This document shows, piece after piece, positions 2,740 to 18,978 of a stretch of 19,130 nt of DNA (the stretch's first letter is position 1; every line of letters starts with the position of its first letter). Where the stretch lies: positions 1 to 19,130 of the forward strand of contig NZ_ALCA01000135.1 of NCBI RefSeq assembly GCF_000278725.1, given 5' to 3'. A model generated the notes under the pieces. It was given only the letters and a program-made list of their open reading frames with translations. It ran no database searches and had not been told where the DNA came from. Position numbers and translations under genes: made by a program. This stretch comes from Actinomyces sp. ICM47. GTDB lineage: Bacteria > Actinomycetota > Actinomycetes > Actinomycetales > Actinomycetaceae.

Positions 2740-4350
2740 ATGAGTCACATCCTGGAACCGGACGTCACGTGGCTGCGGGACCCAGGGGCGTCGGTGAACC
2801 GTTTGACGGTGCACGCGACGTGGAGGTCACGCAGGCCACTTCAGCTGCTCTCAAGCACCTGGCAGGTTACCGGTGTCACTGGCACCGCCTCGGAGTTCAT
2901 TGAAAGGGCCCCTTCTTACCAACATTTCGGCGCGACATCCGTGCCCGGCATCCTGGAGCTGGATGACACGTGGATGCGCGGTGAGGCCCAGGCCCGCGAG
3001 GAGGACGCCTCCCGTTCCGACGACACAGAGGACTGCGACCTGGCGCGCGCCTCGATTCTGCGTCGCGAGTTCATTTTCGATGCTCCCTTGAAGGAGGCGG
3101 TCGAGCGCGGTTGGATGATGACCTTGACCTTCGGCGGGTTCTCGGGTCCTCTCTACGCGTGGGTTGATGGAGCCTTCGTTGGTTTCTGTGCGGATGGTTT
3201 CATTCCCGCGGCCTTTGACGTAACCCGCGCACTACAGCCCACCCACACGCATACACTCGCTGTTTTGCTGATGGATTCGCCGGTGTGCTGCCACGGCCTG
3301 TTCCGCGAGGTGTCGCTGGAGGCGCGTCCCCCGGCACACATTGTGGATCTTGTGCCGGTGGCGTCCCACGACGGGCGCGCGGGCGCCCTGACGCTGCGCG
3401 TCGAAACCACGGGCGGCGTCGAGGTGCACGCCACCTTAGTGAACGAGGCCGAGCAGGCGGAGCTATGGTCTGCCTTCGGGTCGCCCGACGAGGTGTTCGA
3501 GGCTCGTGGACTCGAGGTGCTCCCGTGGAGCGCGGAGGAACCCGCGCTGTACCGGTTGATCGTGACGCTGCGCGACGAGGAGGGGATCAAGGACACGGTG
3601 TCCCTTGACCTTGGTTTCCGCAGCATTGAGGCAACGTCCCAGGGGTTGACCCTGGGCGGTAAGGCCTTGATCTTGCGAGGTGTCACCCGCAACGAGTGTG
3701 ACGGGCGCACGGGCTTGGCGGTCAACTTGCCGGAGATGCTCGACGACATCGTGTGGTGTAAGCAGCACGGCGTCAACACGGTTGTGATCGCCGACGCACC
3801 CGGGCACGCGCGTTTCCTGGAGTTGGCCGACGAGTACGGCCTGTACGTCATCGACTGCACGTCAGCCCTGTATGGTCCGGGGGCCGCACGCAACGAGGCA
3901 ATCGAAGCGGCGATCCGCCGCGACCGCGCCCACCCGAGCGTCATCGCCTGGGCGCTGGGTGATGAGGAGGACGAGGTCCGCGCCGCCCGTTCGCTCGATC
4001 CGACGCGCCCGGAGTACTCCCAAGCGTGCTTCCCTAACCTACACAAGGTGCGCGGCGAGGAGCTGCACTACGCGCCGGTGACGGTTGCGCCCTCGTATTC
4101 GGGGGTGACGGTGCGGAACCACATGACGTTTACGTCAACGGCGGACCTGGAGTTCTTGTGCCGCGTCGTCAACGAGGGTCGCGTGACGTGGGAGTACTCG
4201 GCGTCCTTGGATGTGGCACCCGGAGAGACGGGGTTCCTCTCGGTGCCGTGGCCTTCGCCGGGGCTGCGCGAGGTCTCGGTACGCCTGTCCTACAGCACGG
4301 GGTGGGCACCGGCGGGCTTTGAGATCGCGCACGGAGACTTGTCGATGTAG
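2740..4350 (+). CDS. Shortened LacZ-like (glycoside hydrolase family 2) protein, probably non-catalytic
   Basis: The 536-residue product aligns by eye with LacZ-type beta-galactosidases, which are usually about 1000 residues. WLRDPGASVNRLTVHATW at 11-28 matches the LacZ N-terminus. A jelly-roll sugar-binding domain (about 105-198) contains the strand YAWVDGAFVGF. Residues about 200-300 look like the immunoglobulin-like domain. The TIM barrel begins at LRGVTRNECDGRTG (312-325) and reaches WALGDE (404-409), where LacZ has WSLGNE with the acid/base Glu. The sequence then jumps to a domain 4-like segment (about 443-505). The stretch carrying the nucleophile Glu (CEYAHAMGN in LacZ) and the C-terminal domain are absent. 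Mg-ligand residues of the ETHG motif and the RHEHH histidines are also replaced. No Shine-Dalgarno is visible before the ATG, so it may be leaderless (TACTTT at 2728-2733). Probably a pseudoenzyme or a decaying gene kept in frame. Confidence 0.75.
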   Translation: MSHILEPDVTWLRDPGASVNRLTVHATWRSRRPLQLLSSTWQVTGVTGTASEFIERAPSYQHFGATSVPGILELDDTWMRGEAQAREEDASRSDDTEDCDLARASILRREFIFDAPLKEAVERGWMMTLTFGGFSGPLYAWVDGAFVGFCADGFIPAAFDVTRALQPTHTHTLAVLLMDSPVCCHGLFREVSLEARPPAHIVDLVPVASHDGRAGALTLRVETTGGVEVHATLVNEAEQAELWSAFGSPDEVFEARGLEVLPWSAEEPALYRLIVTLRDEEGIKDTVSLDLGFRSIEATSQGLTLGGKALILRGVTRNECDGRTGLAVNLPEMLDDIVWCKQHGVNTVVIADAPGHARFLELADEYGLYVIDCTSALYGPGAARNEAIEAAIRRDRAHPSVIAWALGDEEDEVRAARSLDPTRPEYSQACFPNLHKVRGEELHYAPVTVAPSYSGVTVRNHMTFTSTADLEFLCRVVNEGRVTWEYSASLDVAPGETGFLSVPWPSPGLREVSVRLSYSTGWAPAGFEIAHGDLSM

Positions 4351-4373
4351 CCGTGTAAACAGTCGGATAGATG

Positions 4374-4416
4374 CGTGGGGGGTGACTCGCTCGAGTCGCC
4401 CCCCACGTCTGTCTGT
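4374..4416 (+). terminator. Terminator after the LacZ-like gene
   Basis: A 15-bp stem (4374-4388 with 4393-4407, one G-T wobble) closes on GCTC and is followed by TCTGTCTGT. It begins 23 nt after the stop codon. The long G6/C6 run makes it very stable and it could act in both directions. Confidence 0.8.
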
Positions 4417-4461
4417 GCGCGACGAGGCCGTGGCCGGGAACCGGGGAGGGCCGCCTCAGGC

Positions 4462-7500: not shown

Positions 7501-9086
7501 GCGCTGATGTCGCGCACGTCCGCGCCTTCCTTCTGCGCCTGCTTAACGGAGGAGTTCATGAACACCGTGCAGCGGGTGCCCAGATCCACGGGGGACTCGG
7601 ACTCCATGGCCATGCGCGCGAAGGAGCGCACGTCGGTGCCCATCGTCTGCGCGAAGGTCTGCAGGAAGGAGCCGCAGCCCGAGGAGCAGGCCTCGTTGAC
7701 GGAGATGGAGTCCACCGCGTGGTCGCGGATGCGCAGGTACTTCATGTCCTGGCCGCCGATGTCGATGACGGAAGTGACGCCGGGGCAAATGAATTCGGCG
7801 GCGCGGTAGTGGGCCATCGTCTCAATCTCGCCCTCGTCCATGGTGAGGGCGGCCTTCACAAGGCCTTCGCCGTAGCCGGTCGCGCACGAGCGGCCGATCT
7901 CGCAGCCCTCCGGCAGCGCACTACGCACAGCACGCACGATGTCGACGGCCGCGGCCACGGGGTCGCCCTCGTTGGAGGCGTAGTGGGTGAAGACGATGCG
8001 GTCCTGGGAGTCGATGACGACGGCCTTGATCGTCGTGGAGCCCGCGTCGATGCCGAGCCAGCAGCGGCCCTCGGCCTCGTCGAGGCTGGCCTTGGGGATG
8101 ACGTCGAGGCTGTGGCGGGCGATGAACTCCTCGCGGTCCTCGGGGGTCGCGAAGAGGGGGTCCATGCGCGGGGATTCGACCTGAACGGGGGCGGCGGCGA
8201 GGCGCTTCATGAGGGTCGTGAGCTTCTCGCCGCGGGTGTCGACGGAGGTTGCGCCCGCTTCCTCGGCCTGACGTTGTTTTTTGGCGGCCTCCTTCTCGGC
8301 GAGGAGGGCCGCGCCAATCGCGACGTAGAGCTGGGCGTCGTCGGGGGTGACGAAGGCATCGGCCTTGGGCAGGAGGGCTTTGTAGGCCTCGCGCAGGGCG
8401 GGCAGGAAGTGCAAGGGGCCGCCGAGGAACATGACAGTTCCGCGGATCGGACGCCCGCACGCCAGGCCCGCGATGGTCTGGGTGGCGACGGCGTTGAAAA
8501 TGGAGGCGGCCAGATCCTCGTGGGCGGCACCCTGGTTGATGAGGGGCTGGATGTCGGACTTGGCGAAGACGCCGCAGCGTGAGGCAATCGGGTAGAGCTG
8601 GGTGTGGCGGGTCGCCAGTTCGCCGAGGCCGGAGGCATCCGTGTGCAGGAGGGTCGCCATCTGGTCGATGAAGGCGCCGGTGCCGCCCGCGCACGTGCCG
8701 TTCATGCGCTGCTCGGGGGTGGGGTGCAGGTAGGTGAGCTTGGCGTCCTCGCCGCCCAGCTCGATGACGACGTCGACCTCGGGGTGGAGGCGCTGGGTGG
8801 CCTCGGTGCCGGCGATGACCTCCTGAACGAAGGGGATTCCCATGGCCCGGGCGGTCGTCAGGCCGCCGGAGCCGGTGATGGCCGCGTGGACGCGGGCGCC
8901 GGGCAGGGCGCGCTCGACGTCGGCGAGGAGAGCCCCGAGCGATGCGCGCACGTCGGCGTTGTGACGACGGTAGTCAGAGAAGAGGCGACGGTTCCCATCC
9001 AGGACGACGGCCTTGACCGTCGTGGAGCCGACGTCGATGCCGAGCTGGTAGGGGCGCGTGGCCTCGTGGTGACGCTGCGTTGTCAT
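4512..9086 (-). CDS. Acyl-CoA dehydratase activase-related protein (tandem BadF/HgdC ATPase plus DUF2229-like)
   Basis: A 1524-residue cytosolic protein. The first ASKHA-fold ATPase domain (about 12-265) has GIDVGSTTVKA at 16-26 and the activator cysteines in NGTCAGGTGAF and SRCGVF. The second (about 340-605) has GIDAGSTTIKA at 345-355 and cysteines in NEACSSGCGSF and TRCTVF. In HgdC-type activators these cysteines hold a bridging [4Fe-4S] cluster used to inject an electron into 2-hydroxyacyl-CoA dehydratases. A Cys cluster C628-x2-C631-x3-C635-x18-C654 may bind another cluster. Two DUF2229/HgdB-like regions follow (about 685-900 and 1080-1460), separated by a Gly/Ala/Ser-rich linker at about 1012-1064. 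ATG 9086 is preferred over the in-frame GTG at 9104 because AAGGAGGT (9097-9090) sits just before it. No dehydratase subunit is encoded nearby, so the true substrate is unknown. Confidence 0.88.
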   Translation of the reverse strand: MTTQRHHEATRPYQLGIDVGSTTVKAVVLDGNRRLFSDYRRHNADVRASLGALLADVERALPGARVHAAITGSGGLTTARAMGIPFVQEVIAGTEATQRLHPEVDVVIELGGEDAKLTYLHPTPEQRMNGTCAGGTGAFIDQMATLLHTDASGLGELATRHTQLYPIASRCGVFAKSDIQPLINQGAAHEDLAASIFNAVATQTIAGLACGRPIRGTVMFLGGPLHFLPALREAYKALLPKADAFVTPDDAQLYVAIGAALLAEKEAAKKQRQAEEAGATSVDTRGEKLTTLMKRLAAAPVQVESPRMDPLFATPEDREEFIARHSLDVIPKASLDEAEGRCWLGIDAGSTTIKAVVIDSQDRIVFTHYASNEGDPVAAAVDIVRAVRSALPEGCEIGRSCATGYGEGLVKAALTMDEGEIETMAHYRAAEFICPGVTSVIDIGGQDMKYLRIRDHAVDSISVNEACSSGCGSFLQTFAQTMGTDVRSFARMAMESESPVDLGTRCTVFMNSSVKQAQKEGADVRDISAGLSYSVVRNALYKVIKLKEPSDLGERVVVQGGTFLNDSVLRAFELLTGREVVRPDIAGLMGAYGAALTARMHDTGEGTSSLATIEALEGFSVDTTRKTCRLCQNHCQMTISTFSNGERHVSGNRCERGASLERVPKKSELPNLYDWKYKRIFGYRRLTEKKAFRGDIGIPRVLGMYENYPFWFTMLTALGFRVMISGRSNHDLFETGMESIPSENVCYPAKLVHGHIESLLNKGITTIFYPCVDFEQKLTESENSFNCPIVATYPEVIRNNMERLAEPGTQFISPFVNFGNREYLPAHLSKTFKEYGYDIPVEEMKAALDKAWEEDAAVKAEIRAKGVETIEWMREHGVRGIVLAGRPYHLDPEINHGIPEVIVGLGMAVLTEDSIIDARLERPLRVLDQWSYHSRLYEAAARVGDEPDLEMVQLNSFGCGVDAITADQVQEILEGRGDVHTVLKIDEVSNLGAAKIRLRSLDAAITERASLASTIDEAGAGDGENGTDGAELAPASSVGLVSGSVDTATLRDPSGDAAREEAAGHIQPRAVFTEEMREAGYEILAPQMSPIHFRFLTPLFASAGLKVRVLEHTSRTSMEVGLKYVNNDSCYPAIVVIGQLLDEFISGRADPDRTAVGITQTGGMCRASNYAALLRKGLRDAGYPQVPVIALSVQGFEDNPGFRLGATHIHKAIQAFVIGDAIQSMLLRVRPYEAEPGSAMELYRTWDGYVQEWITSGRVAALGGRVSYGKLIRECVRAFDALPLRDIPRKPRVGLVGEILVKFHPDANNHAVDVIEAEGCEAELPGLMQFFHNSVATAAWDKENLGIDGKQRYIMPIVLWALKKYEKPVHRAFAATNGKFEAHRPIEEMIERSQDIARLGNQAGEGWYLTAEMVDMIEHGCPNIICAQPFACLPNHIVGKGMFRALRTRYPEANIVAVDYDPGASEVNQLNRIKLMLATALQDPEARDGDVLQLVDVEEPASCGGSGSVMLGMPTIPTRRAAFR

Positions 9087-9109
9087 GGGACCTCCTTGGA
9101 TCACCCAAC

Positions 9110-9138
9110 AACATAGGTCGCGGGTGTTGTCCAGTCAA
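9110..9138 (-). promoter_or_regulatory. Promoter of the activase gene
   Basis: On the minus strand TTGACT (9138-9133) is followed after exactly 17 nt by TATGTT (9115-9110). Transcription would begin near 9103, giving a leader of about 17 nt that carries the strong AAGGAGGT ribosome binding site. Confidence 0.7.
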
Positions 9139-9249
9139 AGGTATGGATTCCCTTCCCTAAAAACCACAGTAAAACGGCATAGATCCGGGGAAAATCACCT
9201 GTCCGACAGCGAAGGGTACGGAGGGGAAGCACAACACGTCCGACAAGAA

Positions 9250-9420
9250 TTACAACATGTGAAGCGTTTCAAAATTAGACTCTTCAGCAAGATAGTGACC
9301 GTCATGGTTTGTCTGTACCCACGCGGCACCGCGCTGCCTACGCACCCACCCCGCCACGGCCTCGGCGTCAAATCCCCAACGAACACCAACAGCACCAAGC
9401 GGCTGAATCGTAGCTACCAT
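9250..9420 (-). CDS. Possible small protein, 56 residues, unknown function
   Basis: A short minus-strand frame begins MVATIQPLGAVGVRWGFDAE and ends NFETLHML. It is bounded upstream by an in-frame stop and fills the otherwise empty stretch between the activase promoter and the Abi block. Its composition reads like a real soluble protein: balanced hydrophobics, a basic segment WVRRQRG, and an acidic tail. I do not recognise it, and no clear ribosome binding site precedes the ATG. It may be a remnant of a DNA-binding or mobile-element protein, or chance. The rest of 9139-9510 holds nothing else that I can support. Confidence 0.3.
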   Translation of the reverse strand: MVATIQPLGAVGVRWGFDAEAVAGWVRRQRGAAWVQTNHDGHYLAEESNFETLHML

Positions 9421-9510
9421 GAACTTGCAGACAAGCCCGCCTCATCGCACGCTAAGCTAGTCATACGATACGAGCAGGCCGCCACGTCACAGGCCCGGGA
9501 GGGGATCAGT

Positions 9511-9867
9511 ATGAGTGGACGTATCACGTACCGCGACACGAAACCCTTTTGTGTTCCCGCATCGCTTGATGAACTCGCGGGTCCATCCACGGGCATCGTG
9601 CATCTCCCCGTGCGCTTGAGCTGGGCACCGGGGGATGGTTCCTTTAGCCTTGATGACGACGGCGAACGAACGACGGTCTACCAATGCGTCATCGGTGAGG
9701 GCAGCGTGGAAGACCAACGACGCTACCTCAACTGCGACATCCTCAGCAACATGTGGCCAACACTGCGCCTTGACCTGGCGATCACAGCCGCATGGGAAAA
9801 CCGCTTCAAGGCACTGTGCGGGAGGAACAGATGGCTCACTCTGTACAAGAGACGCAGCGCCAGCTAA
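9511..9867 (+). CDS. Small conserved actinobacterial protein, partner of the AbiEii-like gene
   Basis: A 118-residue soluble protein. The ATG is supported by GGGAGGGG (9497-9504) 6 nt upstream; the frame is open further 5' but without a good start. The pattern LPVRLSW ... VYQCVIGEGSVEDQRRYLN ... MWPTLRLDLAITAAWE resembles a protein often found just upstream of AbiEii-type nucleotidyltransferases in mycobacteria and other actinobacteria (recollection, not searched). Its 3' end overlaps the start of the next gene by 37 nt, so the two are translationally linked. By position it could be the antitoxin or regulatory partner. No helix-turn-helix is evident, so that role is an inference. Confidence 0.7.
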   Translation: MSGRITYRDTKPFCVPASLDELAGPSTGIVHLPVRLSWAPGDGSFSLDDDGERTTVYQCVIGEGSVEDQRRYLNCDILSNMWPTLRLDLAITAAWENRFKALCGRNRWLTLYKRRSAS

Positions 9868-10492
9868 TCGCATGCGCACTCGAGGTCCTCGCAGATGCGG
9901 CTTCGCCCTCGCTGGTTCAGGCGCGATCCGTGAACACGGGATGACGCAGCGACCCACCAACGACATTGACCTCTTCACGGTCATGCAAGCCTCCACGCGG
10001 TTCCCTCACGCAGTAGACAGCCTCATTGAACACCTCACTGCCAACGACTACGACGTCACCATCGAACGCGTAAGCCCCTCTTTCGCCCAGCTCTCAGTCA
10101 CACCACCGCACGGGGTTCCACTCAGCGTTGATCTCGCTATCGACTGGCGCGCCCACACACCTGTTCGCCTCGACGTTGGCCCCGTTCTTGACATTGAGGA
10201 CGCCGTCGGCAACAAACTGAGCGCCCTGTACTCCAGGAGCTACCCCCGCGACTATCTCGACGTCGATGCGATCCGCTCCACCGGAACGATCAGCGATGCG
10301 CGCCTCATCGAGCTCCTTCAGGAACGCGACGCAGGCTTCGACGTAGGATTCTTTACAGAGTGTCTGCGCGGAGCACACAGCATCAGCCTGACACAAGTTG
10401 CGGCCTACGGTATCAATGCCTCGCAGCTCCATACAATCCAACAACGTTTCCACGCCTGGGCCGACGACATCGACAATCAATGCAACGAATAG
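9831..10492 (+). pseudogene. AbiEii/AbiGii-type nucleotidyltransferase, frameshifted near its N-terminus
   Basis: Translation should start at ATG 9831, which has GGAGGA (9821-9826) 4 nt upstream and gives MAHSVQETQRQLIACALEVL. At about 9900 the frame must shift for the family sequence to continue. The other frame reads FALAGSGAIREHG and then RPTNDIDLF, together the GS...DxD signature of AbiEii nucleotidyltransferases. One missing base in a Gly codon (GC at 9900-9901) explains this. Later landmarks are PVRLDVGPVLDIEDAVGNKL and RDYLDVDAI, with the conserved Lys and Asp. Without correction the first frame stops at TGA 9942-9944, which overlaps an ATG at 9941 (ATGA) that would give a 183-residue protein lacking the GS motif. 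AbiEii toxins modify nucleic acid or nucleotide targets in abortive infection. This may be a real pseudogene, a programmed frameshift or a base-call error. Confidence 0.75.
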
Positions 10493-10540
10493 CCGCAAAG
10501 ACGGCGTGACTTCCTCCGACGTGAATCCCCACCACTCACA

Positions 10541-10595
10541 GACGAGGCATGCAACCTCGTCATGCCTGCCGTGCCTGCCCCGCCACGGCCTCGTC
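10541..10595 (+). terminator. Terminator-like hairpin after the AbiEii gene
   Basis: GACGAGG (10541-10547) pairs with CCTCGTC (10555-10561). A second partner, GCCTCGTC at 10588-10595, could form an alternative longer stem, and GCCGTG/CACGGC lies between them. The site is 49 nt past the nucleotidyltransferase stop. No strong T-run follows, so efficiency is uncertain. Confidence 0.45.
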
Positions 10596-10630
10596 ACGCC
10601 TTTAGCGCACGCCGTGCCTCACTCTTCCGC

Positions 10631-10802
10631 CCGCTAACCTTCTATTCCGCACGTAAACCCTCTTACCTGCACGTGGGCAGGGCCGCCCACGTACGGAATA
10701 GCGGGTTAGCGTGCGGATCAGAGGTCCCACACGCGGAAATAGCGGGTGAACGCGCGCCGCTTAGGAAGCATCCGCCGCGAGTCGGTGCGAGCTATTTCGC
10801 AC
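10631..10802. repeat. Cluster of four imperfect repeats, two in each orientation
   Basis: Copies of a unit close to GTGCGGAATAGCGGGTTAGC occur at 10631-10652 (minus), 10691-10716 (plus), 10731-10756 (plus, 40 nt after the previous) and 10785-10802 (minus, shortened). The first two face each other and flank a perfect 8-bp hairpin, ACGTGGGC (10671-10678) with GCCCACGT (10685-10692). TATTCCG (10643-10649) and CGGAATA (10694-10700) extend the symmetry. The last copy is itself a palindrome, GTGCGA...TCGCAC. No gene is found in 10493-11012 apart from this cluster and the Abi_2 leader. Confidence 0.6.
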
Positions 10803-10882
10803 AACCGCGCATTGAGGGCTGCGGATGAGCCAAACACACTGGCGTAAGTACTTCAATCCCAGCAGATCTCACAGATCGACCT

Positions 10883-10912
10883 TTGACTGGCGGGCACAGA
10901 TAGCAGTAGACT
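10883..10912 (+). promoter_or_regulatory. Promoter of the Abi_2 leader, with operator-like inverted repeat over the -10
   Basis: TTGACT (10883-10888) and TAGACT (10907-10912) are separated by 18 nt, a good actinobacterial sigma-70 pattern. The -10 is overlapped by the perfect inverted repeat AGCAG (10902-10906) TAGA CTGCT (10911-10915), a possible repressor site. Transcription would start near 10919, about 94 nt ahead of the gene. Confidence 0.6.
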
Positions 10913-10918
10913 GCTGCT

Positions 10919-10995
10919 ACTACGTCAGATGCCCAGGGGTTCTGCTCCAGGGTATCGGGGGGTCGGATCTCAGATTCGGCCCCCTCATAATTTTC
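10919..10995 (+). ncRNA. Candidate small structured RNA ahead of the Abi_2 HEPN gene
   Basis: Between the promoter and the gene the transcript can form two hairpins. The first is CCCAGGGG (10932-10939) with CTCCAGGG (10945-10952), one A-A mismatch. The second is the terminator-like stem at 10958-10984. An RNA of about 77 nt ending in the T-rich tract at 10985-10994 is predicted. RNA-antitoxin systems of type III have this layout before an RNase toxin, and structured RNAs have been reported upstream of some AbiF-like genes. I cannot compare this one to any covariance model. It could equally be only an attenuated mRNA leader. Confidence 0.35.
10958..10994 (+). terminator. Strong intrinsic-terminator-like hairpin 18 nt before the Abi_2 start
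   Basis: GGGGGTCGGATCT (10958-10970) pairs with AGATTCGGCCCCC (10972-10984) along its full length with two G-T wobbles, in practice a 12-bp stem with a 3-nt loop. TCATAATTTT follows at once. It sits between a promoter and the coding start, so it must either end a short RNA, attenuate the Abi_2 mRNA, or stop read-through from upstream. Confidence 0.7.
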
Positions 10996-11012
10996 GGTAC
11001 AGCGAGGTCCGC

Positions 11013-12239
11013 ATGAAGCAGTGCATCACCGTTGATGAGCAGATTGCCCTACTGAAGAATCACGGAGTCTCCTTCGACCTCATGTCTGAGGCAGAGGCCC
11101 GAGAGTTCTTATATTCGCGCTCCTATTTCTTCAAAATCAAGTCCTACGAACGCAACTACACCCGCATCGAAAAGGATCGTTCTTACACCTACTCTGGACT
11201 CGACTTCGGCCACCTCGTCGAGCTGTCATACATCGATTTTACCCTGAGTCGCATCTGCCTCTCACTGGCGCTGAGTACCGAGCATTTTCTCAAAGTTCGA
11301 CTCAATCAGCTCATTATGAACGATCCTAAACCGGACCTGTCAGAGGTGCTCGTGCGCCGCATTCTCAACGGCGACACATCCTCCATCCGCTCCAACCCCT
11401 ACACCGAGGACATGTGGGTGGCGTGTGATGGCAATCCTTCCATCTGGCACCTGTGGGAATTGCTCCCATTGAACGAACATATCCGCCTCTACTCGTCTTA
11501 CTTCGATTACAGAGGAGAGAGCGCTCCCTTCGCTCACCTGTTACTCATCGTACGTAAGCTCCGAAACGCTGTTTCCCATGGCAACTGCCTGCTCGCCGAT
11601 GTCTCACGTCCTTCGGAACAGCGTCGTCAATCTGGGGGGCAGAAATACGACAAGGAGGTGACGCTCGCGGCCCTTCGTATGTGCGAAGTCAGCCCGCGTC
11701 GTAATTCCGGCAAGAAAAAGGCCCTCAACGAGGCACTGGATCGGCTCGTTGTCAACAACTTCGCTGCTGCCCTTCTCTGCCATCTCGAGTTCGCTGATTC
11801 ACACAAAGCTCTGAACCATATGGTGGCTGATCTCAAGCATTTTAATGAGAGAATCGAGCGGCATCGTCCGCTGTTCTTCGGAGACTTGCACGTCGAAACC
11901 CCGCGCAATCAGCTCGTCAATTCAACACTGAGCGCCATTCAACGTCTGATCGTCGGATATTGCCGACAGGCAGAACGAAAACTCACGAAACTGACACCCA
12001 TCGACTACTCAGCGGCTGTGACCAGACCTGTACACCCGGACTCACGCACGGGCGGCGACGGGGATTGCACGGACCTGGGTAGCCTTGACGCTCGCCCACA
12101 GGGAATCACCGACGCCGAGGCCCAGGTCGGCCCATGCGGACGCCGTGACCCTGGCGGTCACCGAGACTCCGCCCGCGAGCGCGACGCGCACGCTGACAAG
12201 GGAGCCGTCGACGTCGATGCCTGCGACGACGCCGGGTAG
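11013..12239 (+). CDS. Abi_2 (AbiD/AbiF-type) abortive infection protein with HEPN motif
   Basis: A 408-residue protein. The N-terminus TVDEQIALLKNHGVSF, then a SRSYFFKIKSYERNY segment, is typical of the Abi_2 family. RNAVSH at 184-189 fits the R-x4-H active-site motif of HEPN ribonucleases, so the likely activity is RNA cleavage that stops growth on phage infection (family inference). ATG 11013 has CGAGGT (11003-11008) 4 nt upstream; the in-frame ATG at 10929 lies inside the leader hairpins and is rejected. The last 66 codons run antisense through the 3' end of modBC, with a 198-nt convergent overlap. This tail (from about residue 344) is Asp/Arg/Gly-rich and unlike the family, so the original stop codon was probably lost. 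The gene is visibly more AT-rich than modBC, which suggests acquisition. Confidence 0.82.
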   Translation: MKQCITVDEQIALLKNHGVSFDLMSEAEAREFLYSRSYFFKIKSYERNYTRIEKDRSYTYSGLDFGHLVELSYIDFTLSRICLSLALSTEHFLKVRLNQLIMNDPKPDLSEVLVRRILNGDTSSIRSNPYTEDMWVACDGNPSIWHLWELLPLNEHIRLYSSYFDYRGESAPFAHLLLIVRKLRNAVSHGNCLLADVSRPSEQRRQSGGQKYDKEVTLAALRMCEVSPRRNSGKKKALNEALDRLVVNNFAAALLCHLEFADSHKALNHMVADLKHFNERIERHRPLFFGDLHVETPRNQLVNSTLSAIQRLIVGYCRQAERKLTKLTPIDYSAAVTRPVHPDSRTGGDGDCTDLGSLDARPQGITDAEAQVGPCGRRDPGGHRDSARERDAHADKGAVDVDACDDAG

Positions 12240-14063
12240 GACGCTTCGCGGCGAGGCGTGGGGTTCTTCGCGGGAGAGGGCGACGGCCTCGGGCGGGAAG
12301 GTGAGGGCGATGCGCGCCGACTCTTCTCCGGAGGTGGCGCCGTCGGAGGCCGCCCACAGCGTCCCCTCGCCGACGCGCACGCCGACGAGGCCGGGGCGGG
12401 CAACAGCCGACCCGGTGACGATGTTGAGTCCGGCCAGGCGGGCTGCGAACACCGACGTGGGCGAGGCGAGCACGCGGGCGGGTTCGCCTTCCTCGACGAT
12501 GCTCCCCTCCCCCATGACGATCATGTGGGAAGCGAGGGCCAGGACTTCGGCAATGTCGTGCGAGACGAGCAGGGTCGTGATGCCCGCGCCCGTGAGGCGC
12601 TCGCGCAGGACAGCGGAGACCTGGGCGGTGGCTTCGACGTCGAGGGCAGCGGTCGGCTCGTCGAGGATGAGCACATCGGGGCGGAACACGAGCGCGCGGG
12701 CGATGGCGACGCGGGCGGCTTGGCCGCCAGACAGGTCGGAGGCACGCCGGTGGGCAAGGTCGGCGATACCCACGGCGCGCAACTGCTCGAGGGCGACTGC
12801 CCGGGCCTCAGCTCGCCCGACGCCGCGCACGCGTAGCGGGAACGCGACGTTGCTGAGGACGCTCATGTGCGTGAAGATGCGCGGCGCCTGGGAAACCATG
12901 GCAACGCCGCGCCGCCGCGCAGGCACGAAGGTGGCGGCGTCGTCGACGAGGCGCTCGCCGATCTGCGCGCGACCGGAGTCGAGCCGCAGAGTCCCGGCGA
13001 CAACTTGGGCGAGCGTGGACTTGCCAGCACCGTTATGCCCGACGACGGCCGTCACGAGGCCTGGGCTCAGACGCGCGTCCACGTCCCAGCCGCGCTCACT
13101 CACCGTCCCGGCGACGCGGACAGCGGCGGCAGAAGCGTCGTCACCGGAATCACCGATGCCGGATTCTCGGTGAGCCGCCAGAGATCCATCGGCGCGTGCA
13201 CCCGAGGCAATCCCAGACGCAGAACCGCACCCCGACCTCGTCGATGACAAACGCGAACGCACGAGGGAGGCGACGCTCCCCCACGGGGTTTCCGTCAGCG
13301 CGACGACGAGTGCCGCGACGCCGAGGAGTACGACGCCGAGCGCGAGGGCCAGGTCGGCATCGGACTCGCGTGCCAAGTAGATCTGGAGCGGCATCGTGCG
13401 GGTCACGCCCTGCATGGACCCTGCGAACGTGAGGGTCGCTCCGAACTCGCCGAGGCATCGGGCCAGCGCGAGAGCTGCACCGCGCCCCAGACCGGGCAGA
13501 ACGGTCGGCAACGTGATCTGCCAAAAGACGCGCGAGGGCGAAGCCCCCAGGGAGGAGGCCATCTCGTCGAGGCCGCGCTCACGGGCGCGCAGCGCGGATT
13601 CGAGGGTGACGATGAGGAAGGGCAGGGAGACGAAGACCTGCGCGATGACGACGGCTGTCGTCGTAAAAGCGATGTCGAGGTCGGCACCGCTCAGCAGGGC
13701 ACCCAGCGTCGAGCGCCTGCCGAAGGCCGAGAGCAGTGCGATGCCGGCGACGACGGGCGGCAGCGAGAGCGGCAGGGCGACGAGGATGCGAGCAGCGCGT
13801 ACGCCCCGCCATGAGCGCGAGAGGATAAGTGCGGCGGGAACACCGAGGAGGAGGTCGACGCCGAGGGCCACAGCGCACGTGCGTAGCGACAAACTGAGGG
13901 CGGCGGCGGCCTCGGGCGTCGCGAGTGTGGTCCCTAGAGTTCCCCAGTTGACGCGCCCCAGCATGAAGGCGAGGGGCAGCAGCAGGAAGCAGAGGGCGAG
14001 CGCGCCGAGGCCCCCCGCCCAGACGGGCAGGGGGCTGACGGCGGGCGTCCTGCGTGAGGTCAT
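12042..14063 (-). CDS. modBC: Molybdate ABC transporter, fused permease and ATPase (ModB-ModC)
   Basis: A 673-residue fusion that transports molybdate across the cytoplasmic membrane with ModA. Residues about 12-265 are the ModB permease, with several hydrophobic helices and the EAA loop (EMASSLGASPSRVFWQITLP, 167-186) that contacts the ATPase. A Ser/Ala/Gly-rich linker spans about 268-312. Residues about 315-540 are the ModC ATPase: Walker A GHNGAGKST (342-350), signature LSGGQ (444-448), Walker B LILDEP (465-470) and switch His in SHD (501-503). The tail (about 548-670) resembles the TOBE/MOP molybdate-sensing domain. The ATG lies 9 nt after the modA stop with only a weak ribosome binding site, so translation is probably coupled. 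Its 3' end overlaps the convergent Abi_2 frame, and no separate terminator is seen. Confidence 0.92.
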   Translation of the reverse strand: MTSRRTPAVSPLPVWAGGLGALALCFLLLPLAFMLGRVNWGTLGTTLATPEAAAALSLSLRTCAVALGVDLLLGVPAALILSRSWRGVRAARILVALPLSLPPVVAGIALLSAFGRRSTLGALLSGADLDIAFTTTAVVIAQVFVSLPFLIVTLESALRARERGLDEMASSLGASPSRVFWQITLPTVLPGLGRGAALALARCLGEFGATLTFAGSMQGVTRTMPLQIYLARESDADLALALGVVLLGVAALVVALTETPWGSVASLVRSRLSSTRSGCGSASGIASGARADGSLAAHRESGIGDSGDDASAAAVRVAGTVSERGWDVDARLSPGLVTAVVGHNGAGKSTLAQVVAGTLRLDSGRAQIGERLVDDAATFVPARRRGVAMVSQAPRIFTHMSVLSNVAFPLRVRGVGRAEARAVALEQLRAVGIADLAHRRASDLSGGQAARVAIARALVFRPDVLILDEPTAALDVEATAQVSAVLRERLTGAGITTLLVSHDIAEVLALASHMIVMGEGSIVEEGEPARVLASPTSVFAARLAGLNIVTGSAVARPGLVGVRVGEGTLWAASDGATSGEESARIALTFPPEAVALSREEPHASPRSVLPGVVAGIDVDGSLVSVRVALAGGVSVTARVTASAWADLGLGVGDSLWASVKATQVRAIPVAARA

Positions 14064-17002: not shown

Positions 17003-17653
17003 TTATTCAGAGTGTCGTGGCGACAACTGGTCGAGCCATGCGATCAATTCGGGCATGTCGGTCCAGGGTGCCGCGTCCCACGCGGTGACACCCTTCGCAA
17101 AGCTTGTCCGTCGGTGTTTTACCCGTGAGCAGGCGTCGTCGGTTTGATCGATGAGCCACTCGGGGATGCTCATCCCTTTCGAGTAGGTTCCCTGCTTCCA
17201 CTTGTTTTCTAGCTCCTTGCAAGCGGAAACGGCGGTCCGACTCGAGCATGTGTTCGCGCAGTGATAGACGAACCACGCCTCGATGCAGGGATTCGATAGC
17301 ACCACGCCGCGAGGCAACCTCGACTGCTCTGTTAACCACTTCTGCAGGTTCTTGGCGTGGGGTCTATTCTCATCCACGTCGCAAACGATCCAGGCACCGC
17401 TGACGCTCTCGGGTCCCAGCTCTGCTGCTTTCCGTTTGACGTTCACCAGGAGATTCTTGAGCGAGGATTCGTCACCACTCCCGCAGAAATCAAAAGCAAA
17501 TGCTCCCCGATAACGGTGCTGATTGAGCGCCTTGAGATACTTTTTTTCCGTAGCGCCTTCGACCGCGAGGAGGACAAGGGGCTTCACCTGTTTGCTATGA
17601 GAGCGACCCCTGAACCCACGTGAGGCTTTCCTCGTCGGTGCCTTCTTGCCCAC
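17003..17653 (-). CDS. RloB-family protein, second gene of a defence-like pair
   Basis: A 216-residue protein with a basic N-terminus (RKASRGFRGRSHSKQVK). VLLAVEGATEKKYLKAL (about 27-43), WIVCDVDEN and VVLSNPCIEAWFVYH are the recognisable RloB blocks. The Glu of EGATE and the DxD of CDVDEN fit a TOPRIM-like nuclease centre (inference). The GTG start has AGGAGG 4 nt upstream; that site overlaps the stop of the ATPase gene, with an 8-nt gap, so the two are co-translated. RloA/RloB pairs were named from restriction-modification-linked genes in Campylobacter, and ATPase plus RloB pairs occur among abortive infection systems such as AbiL (recollection). The ATPase would act as sensor and RloB as effector. 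Confidence 0.82.
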   Translation of the reverse strand: MGKKAPTRKASRGFRGRSHSKQVKPLVLLAVEGATEKKYLKALNQHRYRGAFAFDFCGSGDESSLKNLLVNVKRKAAELGPESVSGAWIVCDVDENRPHAKNLQKWLTEQSRLPRGVVLSNPCIEAWFVYHCANTCSSRTAVSACKELENKWKQGTYSKGMSIPEWLIDQTDDACSRVKHRRTSFAKGVTAWDAAPWTDMPELIAWLDQLSPRHSE

Positions 17654-17661
17654 ATCGCCTC

Positions 17662-18978
17662 CTAGAGCCGCGGAACGCCGCCAAGGCGACCCGACATGTA
17701 CATCCGCTGCAGGTCACTGCCTGACCGAATGTCGGAAGCAGGGAAGTCCGTGAGCCTCGTGAGTTCTGAGCGGTGATCGTTCTTCTCCACCAGCCAAATC
17801 TCATCGCGCCGCAGAAGGTCAACGCGGAGTAGATGCAGCTCATGCGTCGTAAAGATCAGCTGGCGCTGCTCGTCGGGTCCCGATGCATCCAGGAACAGCC
17901 GAATGAGCTCCTCCGTAAGCTTCGGATGAAGCGAATCTTCGAGTTCGTCGATCAGGTAGACCCCGGAGTGCTGTCTCTTTCCCGCCCAGTAGAGAATGGG
18001 CAACAGGTTGAGATAACGGATGCTACCGTCGGATTCCTGCTCGAGGGGCAGCCGAAACCCCTTGTTTCCACCCCCATGCACGGTGACAAGACGCTCATAG
18101 ACAACATGTTCATCCTCTGCCAAGCGAGCGCGGAAAACGGCGCCACTCTCCGCATTGAGGTACGCCTCAGAAGTGTTATCGAGCAGCTGTCCCTCGACCT
18201 CATCAAGGATTTTTTCTTCTGCAGGCACCTTTGCTCGAGGCACCTCTATGAAGCAGATGTCGGAGATGCCCGTGTCAGCGGCTGTCAACCCCTGCCCAAC
18301 AGCGGTACGAAAATCCTCATCGTGCGCGATTTGCTGCGGCATGAGGATGTAACGTGCTCCCCGCTTGAGGATTGTCAGGCGCTTAAACCATTCGATGACG
18401 GAGCCCAGAAGACTCTTCTCATCATCGATGAATCCCGCATTGAAGCAGGTTTCGAGGAAGAGGCGATTTGGTTGCACCGTCTTCGACGCCGCATCGAGGG
18501 ACACGTCGTCCTCAAGATCGCCATAGAGAGAGACCTCCTGGCCGCGGCGTTCAAAGACCGCCTGCTCATCTTCCGAGCGCACGCGATAGAGGGACTCTTC
18601 GACGATTTCTCCCGCGTTGAACGCCACCTCGTAGTAGACGATAGCCTTGCGATTCGACGTCGCATCCTGTACATCGAGGACGATTTCGACGCCAATGACG
18701 CTGGGCCTGTTGGCACCGAAGAGAAGGTGCGGGTGATAGTGCAGGCGTTGCCCACGCTTACGCGGCTCGCGCAGCATGACCTGCAGGTGGGCGAGAGCAT
18801 CGAGGAGAGTAGATTTCCCCGCCGCATTCGCACCGTAGATCGCAGCAACGGGAAGCACGCGATTCTTGCTGCCGAGGTAGAGGGTCTCTCCGTGGCGGCT
18901 TTCTTTGCCCGCAATCATCGTAAAGTCGACCGGTTCCGAGAAGCACTTCCAGTTGTCAAGGTGCAGGACTCGCAGCAT
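17662..18978 (-). CDS. AAA_15/AAA_21-type ATPase (RloA-like), first gene of a defence-like pair
   Basis: A 438-residue SMC/ABC-like ATPase. VLHLDNWKCFSEPVDF at the N-terminus is the usual strand before the nucleotide site. Walker A is YGANAAGKST (48-57). A signature-like ESDGSIRYLNLLPI (315-328), Walker B GVYLIDELEDSLHP (339-352) and FTTHE (376-380) with the switch His complete the ATPase. The middle part (about 90-300) is family-specific and may sense the trigger. Only a weak GAGAG precedes the ATG. The partner RloB-family gene follows after 8 nt. A 21-bp palindrome overlaps the likely promoter. The pair is more AT-rich than the mod genes and probably horizontally acquired. OLD- or PARIS-type ATPases are alternatives, but the RloB partner favours RloA. 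Confidence 0.82.
   Translation of the reverse strand: MLRVLHLDNWKCFSEPVDFTMIAGKESRHGETLYLGSKNRVLPVAAIYGANAAGKSTLLDALAHLQVMLREPRKRGQRLHYHPHLLFGANRPSVIGVEIVLDVQDATSNRKAIVYYEVAFNAGEIVEESLYRVRSEDEQAVFERRGQEVSLYGDLEDDVSLDAASKTVQPNRLFLETCFNAGFIDDEKSLLGSVIEWFKRLTILKRGARYILMPQQIAHDEDFRTAVGQGLTAADTGISDICFIEVPRAKVPAEEKILDEVEGQLLDNTSEAYLNAESGAVFRARLAEDEHVVYERLVTVHGGGNKGFRLPLEQESDGSIRYLNLLPILYWAGKRQHSGVYLIDELEDSLHPKLTEELIRLFLDASGPDEQRQLIFTTHELHLLRVDLLRRDEIWLVEKNDHRSELTRLTDFPASDIRSGSDLQRMYMSGRLGGVPRL

Follow-up and report, generated by a model that had tools for sequence, protein, structure and literature searches.

In the 19,130-nucleotide stretch of Actinomyces sp. ICM47 analysed here (the window; contig NZ_ALCA01000135.1, forward strand), a gene for a HEPN protein of the Abi_2 family is preceded by a promoter and a short leader with two abutting hairpins (Table 1). 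Both hairpins covary, the leader recurs directly 5' of homologous genes, and the predicted fold of the protein is AbiF-like. It is likely that this locus represents a toxin module of the AbiF type from an actinobacterium, equipped with its own RNA antitoxin. Such an RNA-antitoxin-style arrangement had been proposed in an earlier note on the same DNA; it is supported by the conservation of the leader at the level of structure and by an architecture that matches the AbiF system described in PMC12373285.

The Abi_2 gene and its leader in the window

The promoter that had been proposed for the locus is present and is of the sigma-70 type. Its -35 hexamer TTGACT (10883-10888) and its -10 hexamer TAGACT (10907-10912) are separated by 18 nt and agree with the consensus at 9 of 12 positions. 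Taken alone, this pattern is near chance (3 sites in the 3.3 kb scanned, shuffle mean 1.1). By eye, a -10-like hexamer was found 9-10 nt 5' of an ACGU-type tag in all seven loci compared (the window, L001, L003, L057, L058, L059 and L040). The leader transcript is expected to extend from about 10919 to about 10995, both ends being predicted.

The leader region folds with -43.8 kcal/mol (z -3.6), and none of 200 shuffles was equally stable. Hairpin 1, which had been placed at 10932-10952, is real and longer than assumed, and the 13-bp hairpin placed at 10958-10984 was recovered with nearly the same borders as hairpin 2. The tail after hairpin 2, CATAATTTTC, is T-rich as described, but it is a weak intrinsic terminator because its four Ts begin six bases past the stem; better terminator tails occur in L003, L057 and L059. 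The distance of 18 nt given for the Abi_2 start codon holds approximately when counted from the T-run and amounts to 27 nt when counted from the stem. By its sequence, the locus thus carries a small RNA, a terminator, weak in the window, and the gene of a putative RNase toxin behind one promoter, as in type III systems, and this anatomy is conserved as a unit in the relatives. Three families of direct repeats were found in 10450-11100, none of them inside the leader, and no tandem-repeat antitoxin array of the ToxN-family kind was detected there. Upstream of the promoter (10626-10717), large imperfect inverted repeats with 29-nt arms (86% complementary) and a repeated AATAGCGGGT unit were observed, which are poorly conserved at the same place in L001.

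The protein matched the Pfam family Abi_2 (PF07751; E 1.7e-8, 35.5 bits against a cut-off of 25.6) and PADLOC AbiD (E 1.4e-8). The R-x4-H motif RNAVSH, already noticed earlier, comprises residues 184-189, and R184 and H189 are invariant in all 28 rows of alignment A2, which consists of the window protein and 27 of its 48 relatives. Among PDB entries, an AlphaFold2 model (predicted local distance difference test score 88) came closest to 8vz6 (PbAbiF-AbiFr), which was well ahead of the rest in Z (13.7) and was also ranked first by Foldseek, with low TM-scores. The two proteins share 14% sequence identity, and a sequence search of the window protein against 8vz6 gave no match; because of this, the tie to 8vz6 is one of fold. 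The homologous core comprises approximately codons 1-343 (to 12041). The last 65 codons (12042-12239) run antisense to the end of a modBC-like gene (12042-14063), and the C-terminal tails of the relatives are unalike in A2, so the C-terminus of the Abi_2 frame may be accidental.

Some relatives deviate in their coding regions. In L057 (847-2511, minus strand), Abi_2 is fused to a DnaQ-like exonuclease (PF00929, 134 bits); the L058 protein is of similar length (607 codons), and the same domain pair occurs in 3 of the 48 related proteins. In L003 (genome G065), no ATG, GTG or TTG was found at the expected Abi_2 start near position 1489 of the reverse strand; the leader is intact there, and a TTG occurs 13 codons further into the frame.

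Table 1. Features of the Abi_2 locus, with positions in the window.
Feature	Position	Strand	Basis
Sigma-70-type promoter, TTGACT-18-TAGACT	10883..10912	+	Hexamer match and comparison by eye
Conserved two-hairpin leader RNA	10922..10996	+	Models R1 and R2; 73/75 identity with L001
Hairpin 1 (7 bp, A.A mismatch, 5 bp, 3-nt loop); putative toxin-binding element	10928..10956	+	Fold, covariation, phage-borne copies
Hairpin 2 (13 bp, 3-nt loop), abutting hairpin 1; putative terminator or attenuator	10957..10985	+	Fold and covariation
Short T-run, weak terminator tail 3' of hairpin 2	10991..10994	+	Sequence
GAGG, presumed Abi_2 ribosome binding site	11004..11007	+	Sequence; kept in L001
Abi_2/AbiF-like HEPN protein, 408 aa	11013..12239	+	Pfam PF07751, PADLOC AbiD, AlphaFold2 model, 8vz6 match
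HEPN motif RNAVSH, residues 184-189	11562..11579	+	Alignment A2

Conservation of the leader and its linkage to Abi_2 genes

A protein search yielded 48 relatives at E <= 0.001. Nine of them reached 84% identity or more while covering 99% or more of the query, and the majority of the others showed 37-55% identity. A close copy of the locus was found in one public genome contig (L001, 86-90% identity). Whole-genome searches gave 2 matches in the 213 genomes of the family of L001 (G001, which is L001's own genome, and G065), 15 in a phylum sample of 396 genomes and 10 in an order sample of 396, G001 being among them in both cases. In a second family, probably the Bifidobacteriaceae because a 16S primer matches several members, 34 of 189 genomes were positive. 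No relative of the locus was obtained by a DNA search of plasmids, and a protein search of phages and plasmids returned distant relatives only, all below 60% identity.

Between the window and L001, 73 of 75 bases are identical in the leader, 92 of 140 aligned bases in the 150 nt upstream, and 882 of 1029 in the Abi_2 codons. A covariance model built from these two sequences only (R1) was run with filters off on L001 and four other loci and matched L059 (E 4.9e-7), L057 (5.5e-6) and L003 (3.5e-4), in each case directly 5' of an Abi_2 gene; the leader of L058 was not found in this search. The proteins of the three matched loci are 42-48% identical to the window protein. Under default filters on 64 sources, R1 recovered L057 only beyond its own sequences and missed L059 and L003. 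It also matched the opposite strand of the near-palindromic hairpin 2 in L001 and the window, with filters-off E-values better than those of L057 and L003.

In the reciprocal direction, a model built from L059, L057 and L003 alone (R2), excluding the window and L001, detected L001 with E 2.4e-15 and the window with E 2.4e-14 among the 64 sources. In the alignment of the three R2 rows (A8), 93.3% of the cells pair and 17 of 25 pairs are changed in both partners, and neither value was reached by any of 500 shuffles; as A8 was aligned to the R1 structure, from which the R2 structure was derived, these counts lean toward that structure. When the partners were slid by 1-3 columns as a control, 2-4 double-changed pairs remained. 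Hairpin 2 contributes 11 double-changed pairs out of 13. The earlier note had named a lack of hairpin conservation as a finding that would speak against its proposal; the leader proved to be conserved by structure, with compensatory changes, together with homologous toxin genes in other genomes. Judged from these alignments, the leader is an RNA under selection.

By eye, the loci share a common plan, consisting of the -10-like hexamer, 9-10 nt, a tag of the form ACGU(C)AGA or close to it, hairpin 1, hairpin 2 abutting or near it, a T-rich tail and the Abi_2 start. Hairpin 1 is 28-29 nt long and contains a single internal mismatch, which is A.A in the window, A.C in L003, C.U in L057 and U.U in L059, and its loop is usually UNCG, replaced by UCU in the window and L001. 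The tag is kept in L058, which has a weaker R2 match (E 0.022), and L060 and L061 show two hairpins by eye and no R2 match. Eight loci (the window, L001, L003 and L057-L061) score above 340 bits with an A2 profile, and five of these have R2 matches below 1e-13, three of the five being the loci from which R2 was built. No such leader was seen by eye in 12 distant loci (L005-L011, L014, L015, L017, L022 and L026); R2 matches in L011 (E 0.006) and L014 (E 0.01) fall 3' of the Abi_2 gene, not 5'.

Other leaders precede some Abi_2 genes. In L065, L066 and L067, more distant members, a leader hairpin with a GUGAAG 3' bulge, by eye of a topology like that of Rfam RF03085, is followed by a strong terminator. 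A further group from five genomes (L012, L013, L020, L021 and L023) has very similar two-hairpin leaders 5' of the gene, which may represent a third type of RNA.

Run against 402 genomes from both families, R2 gave 20 matches at E <= 0.1, spread over 18 genomes; five of these matches fell below 1e-6 (E-values per genome, strict filters). Four of the five strong matches sit 5' of Abi_2 genes (G001, G065, G1056 and G974). At the other 16 loci, including the fifth strong one, no Abi_2 relative was recognised within up to 1.5 kb on either side. Two of the weak matches (E about 1e-4 to 0.1), in G208 (L111) and at 4345-4417 of the window, were inspected and look like ordinary terminators. The counts are lower bounds because the scan missed a copy in G807 that was found among the 64 sources (L040, 652-728, minus strand, the same site as L110, 14603-14679, minus strand). 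This copy adjoins a decayed Abi_2 gene, and no intact one was recognised behind it in the DNA examined.

Copies of hairpin 1 in phages, and neighbouring defence genes

R2 also matched G1056:C1:80561-80634 (E 1e-8). Nine surrounding proteins matched phage-type PHROGs (single-strand binding protein, exonuclease subunit, HNH, small and large terminase subunits, portal, head protease, major head protein and tape measure), which places the copy in a prophage. A search of the surrounding 35 kb detected no relative of Abi_2; the Abi_2 gene of this genome lies on another contig, and its leader differs from the prophage copy, by eye, at 1 of 34 bases of tag and hairpin 1. A search of 189 genomes with a 27-base core, allowing up to three mismatches, gave three sites, two in G1056 and one in G1074, and none with the reversed control. 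The G1074 site lies in a prophage-like stretch (by reading of its open reading frames) and adjoins a tRNA gene; no Abi_2 gene was seen in 19 kb.

Among viral contigs, an exact pattern had three matches, of which L147 (E 1.7e-9) and L157 (E 4.6e-7) have an R2 match at the site and L156 has none there. No Abi_2 gene was found in the 14.75 kb of L147 and the 6 kb of L157 examined. A 17-base gapped pattern matched 44 viral stretches, with a strong R2 match only in L147, and exact or near-exact patterns of two leaders returned nothing in the viral contigs. The phage gene beside the copies is 42, 64 and 91% identical to that of L157 in the other three, and the tag, the 5' arm and the loop persist. 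This gene was found in 11 viral loci, with a clear RNA in L162 and L163, which are the contigs of L157 and L147 again, and with a weaker, differently spelled hairpin in L165 (A.A mismatch, UUCG loop, E 1.4e-5). When hairpin 1 of two leaders was compared with five phage rows, 7 of 12 pairs were double-changed (0 of 500 shuffles) and 14.3% of the cells were unpaired, the double-change count being inflated by related rows. Folded against 500 shuffles each, hairpin 1 of the window, L003, L057, L097 and L165 was beaten or equalled by 5-21, whereas the folds of L147 (103), L161 (94) and L157 (316) were not exceptional; in the accompanying list of pairs, the L059 row was out of register and was disregarded.

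The copies in L097, L147, L157 and L161 lie 5' of HNH/terminase genes, and those in L147, L157 and L161 also beside tRNA genes, which may be a coincidence or may replace cleaved tRNA. By eye, a second hairpin is common to L097, L147 and L157. Since pseudo-ToxI has been documented in phages escaping ToxIN (PMC5086642), mimicry is a reasonable lead. As a tentative idea, somewhat short of an even chance, phages of Bifidobacteriaceae-like hosts might carry stand-alone copies of hairpin 1, placed in a small RNA/tRNA cassette 5' of HNH/terminase genes, as a decoy: by imitating the AbiF antitoxin, this RNA would prevent the HEPN toxin from becoming active while the phage infects the cell. Several observations weigh against a decoy: a clear copy is lacking in 8 of the 11 related phage loci, no promoter was seen 5' of the phage copies, and the G1074 copy has a weak R2 score (E 0.075). 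In addition, L147 and L157 carry extra mismatches, L157 two more than the G1056 leader, and the 33-mer of L157 prefers a fold other than hairpin 1. The copies might also be remnants of a lost abi module or a phage RNA that is sensed by the leader. If they are mimics, AbiF would join ToxIN as a system beaten by counterfeit antitoxin RNA, and the toxin/prophage pair of G1056 offers a ready test.

The window region looks like a small defence island. An AbiEii-like nucleotidyltransferase gene (9635-10492, plus strand; PF08843, 44.2 bits) precedes the Abi_2 module. The two frames scanned upstream of it (9559-9867 and 9085-9867) matched no Pfam family, so that an AbiEi partner was not recognised. 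A second abortive-infection pair, an RloB-like/AbiLii gene adjoining an AAA ATPase/AbiLi gene, is located at 17003-18978 (minus strand).

Proposed mechanism and related systems

According to the proposed mechanism, the promoter would give rise to an RNA of about 75 nt with two stacked hairpins. Most transcripts would end at hairpin 2, so that the RNA would outnumber the toxin mRNA, and read-through would yield the Abi_2 HEPN protein, which as a dimer would act as an RNase. Hairpin 1 would bind this protein and hold it inactive. The simplest account is that the upstream RNA would both bind the protein and limit its mRNA, and the RNA probably restrains the Abi_2 protein. Phage infection might disturb transcription or titrate the RNA, whereupon the toxin would be freed and growth would stop.

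Instead of binding the toxin, the hairpins might act in cis only, as an attenuator or sensor that tunes the transcription or translation of Abi_2 and is perhaps released by a phage protein, as reported for lactococcal AbiD1. Hairpin 2 lies at an attenuator-like place 5' of the start codon, and for AbiD1 a structured 5' untranslated region and a prematurely terminated transcript are described in PMC12373285. Hairpin 1, however, comes with a conserved tag of its own, its loop is mostly UNCG, its pairs show compensatory changes, and it occurs away from any Abi_2 gene, which a cis-only switch would not predict. These isolated copies favour a trans-acting hairpin 1, and a purely cis-acting leader is regarded as unlikely. 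Much less probable still is that the RNA serves a Cas13-like effector as a guide or for target recognition, since both hairpins are nearly fully paired, with a short 5' tag and a 3' tail as the free parts and no spacer-like segment, and since the stem sequences drift freely.

It was also considered whether the leader is coding, with the gene starting at the ATG at 10929 and the hairpins as a by-product of the codons. In the window this frame is indeed open from 10929, in L001 it is open from 2917, and the L058 leader likewise has no stop in the Abi_2 frame. Stops in this frame occur within the leaders of L003, L057 and L059, for which reason this explanation was rejected as highly implausible; moreover, most A2 rows begin at the residue aligned with 11013, and the paired columns covary. 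The hairpins might finally be chance inverted repeats: by a loose criterion of hairpin plus tail, Abi_2 leaders could not be told apart from shuffles. The feature was present in 0-70% of shuffles and flagged 4 of the 12 distant loci that are leaderless by eye (L005, L007, L008 and L014), and because it does not discriminate, this count was set aside. Against chance stand the reciprocal model matches and the covariation, which leave it a negligible probability.

The AbiF module with a neutralising upstream RNA, the reading preferred here, is a kind of system that is already known. AbiF/RCd22 of Clostridioides difficile phi027 follows the same plan of promoter, RNA with hairpins (RCd22, about 100 nt), predicted Rho-independent terminator and Abi_2/HEPN gene with the R..H residues (PMC12373285). 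According to the same source, C. difficile AbiF is toxic and loses its toxicity when R202 and H207 are changed; RCd22 binds the protein, neutralises it when supplied in trans and reduces abiF expression in cis. RCd22 is described as two RF03085 motifs plus a separate terminator, whereas the present leader has a single hairpin of another build, directly adjoined by the terminator-like one. PbAbiF-AbiFr (8vz6; Zilberzwige-Tal et al. 2025) is reported to have one RNA per monomer and inhibitory bulge nucleotides (PMC12737573, PMC12373285), and the likeness to the present system lies in the predicted protein fold. The leader of lactococcal AbiD1, which likewise precedes a gene of the Abi_2 family, is comparable in being structured and in showing early termination. 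A phage protein reportedly acts on that leader (PMC12373285); no such factor is known here.

The Rfam abiF RNA (RF03085) is likewise a small hairpin RNA 5' of Abi_2 genes. It comprises 37 nt with a 6+3 bp stem, an 11-nt loop and a 6-nt 3' bulge, whereas the shorter hairpin 1 has a single mismatch and a 3-4-nt loop. The leader is not a match to this known family: RF03085 had no match in the window or parts of it at the gathering score or at E up to 10, and none at the gathering score in the loci of 20 relatives. Among 25 Abi_2-bearing genomes, 6 had a match at E <= 1 and none exceeded the cut-off; the best sub-threshold candidate (G739, 34.2 bits) adjoins an open reading frame that by our reading resembles HipA and was rejected.

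Type III toxin-antitoxin systems (ToxIN, AbiQ, TenpIN) are alike in that the RNA antitoxin gene, a Rho-independent terminator and a toxic endoribonuclease share one operon. The fold of ToxN-type toxins differs from the HEPN fold, and the putative toxin considered here, unlike that of ToxN-type systems, is a HEPN protein. The type III antitoxin is described as a tandem repeat array (PMC5086642), whereas here one hairpin unit is present.

Few RNA partners of AbiF are described in the literature examined. In the literature searches made, among them one on AbiF with Actinobacteria and antitoxin, no listing described this RNA, and the word beginnings "actino" and "bifido" are absent from the main text of PMC12373285. 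AbiF has been proposed as the ancestor of Cas13 (PMC12737573). A further RNA partner for this toxin fold, with a structure of its own and found in Actinomycetota, would raise the question of which RNA features inhibit a HEPN dimer, and would also bear on how an antitoxin RNA could become a guide.
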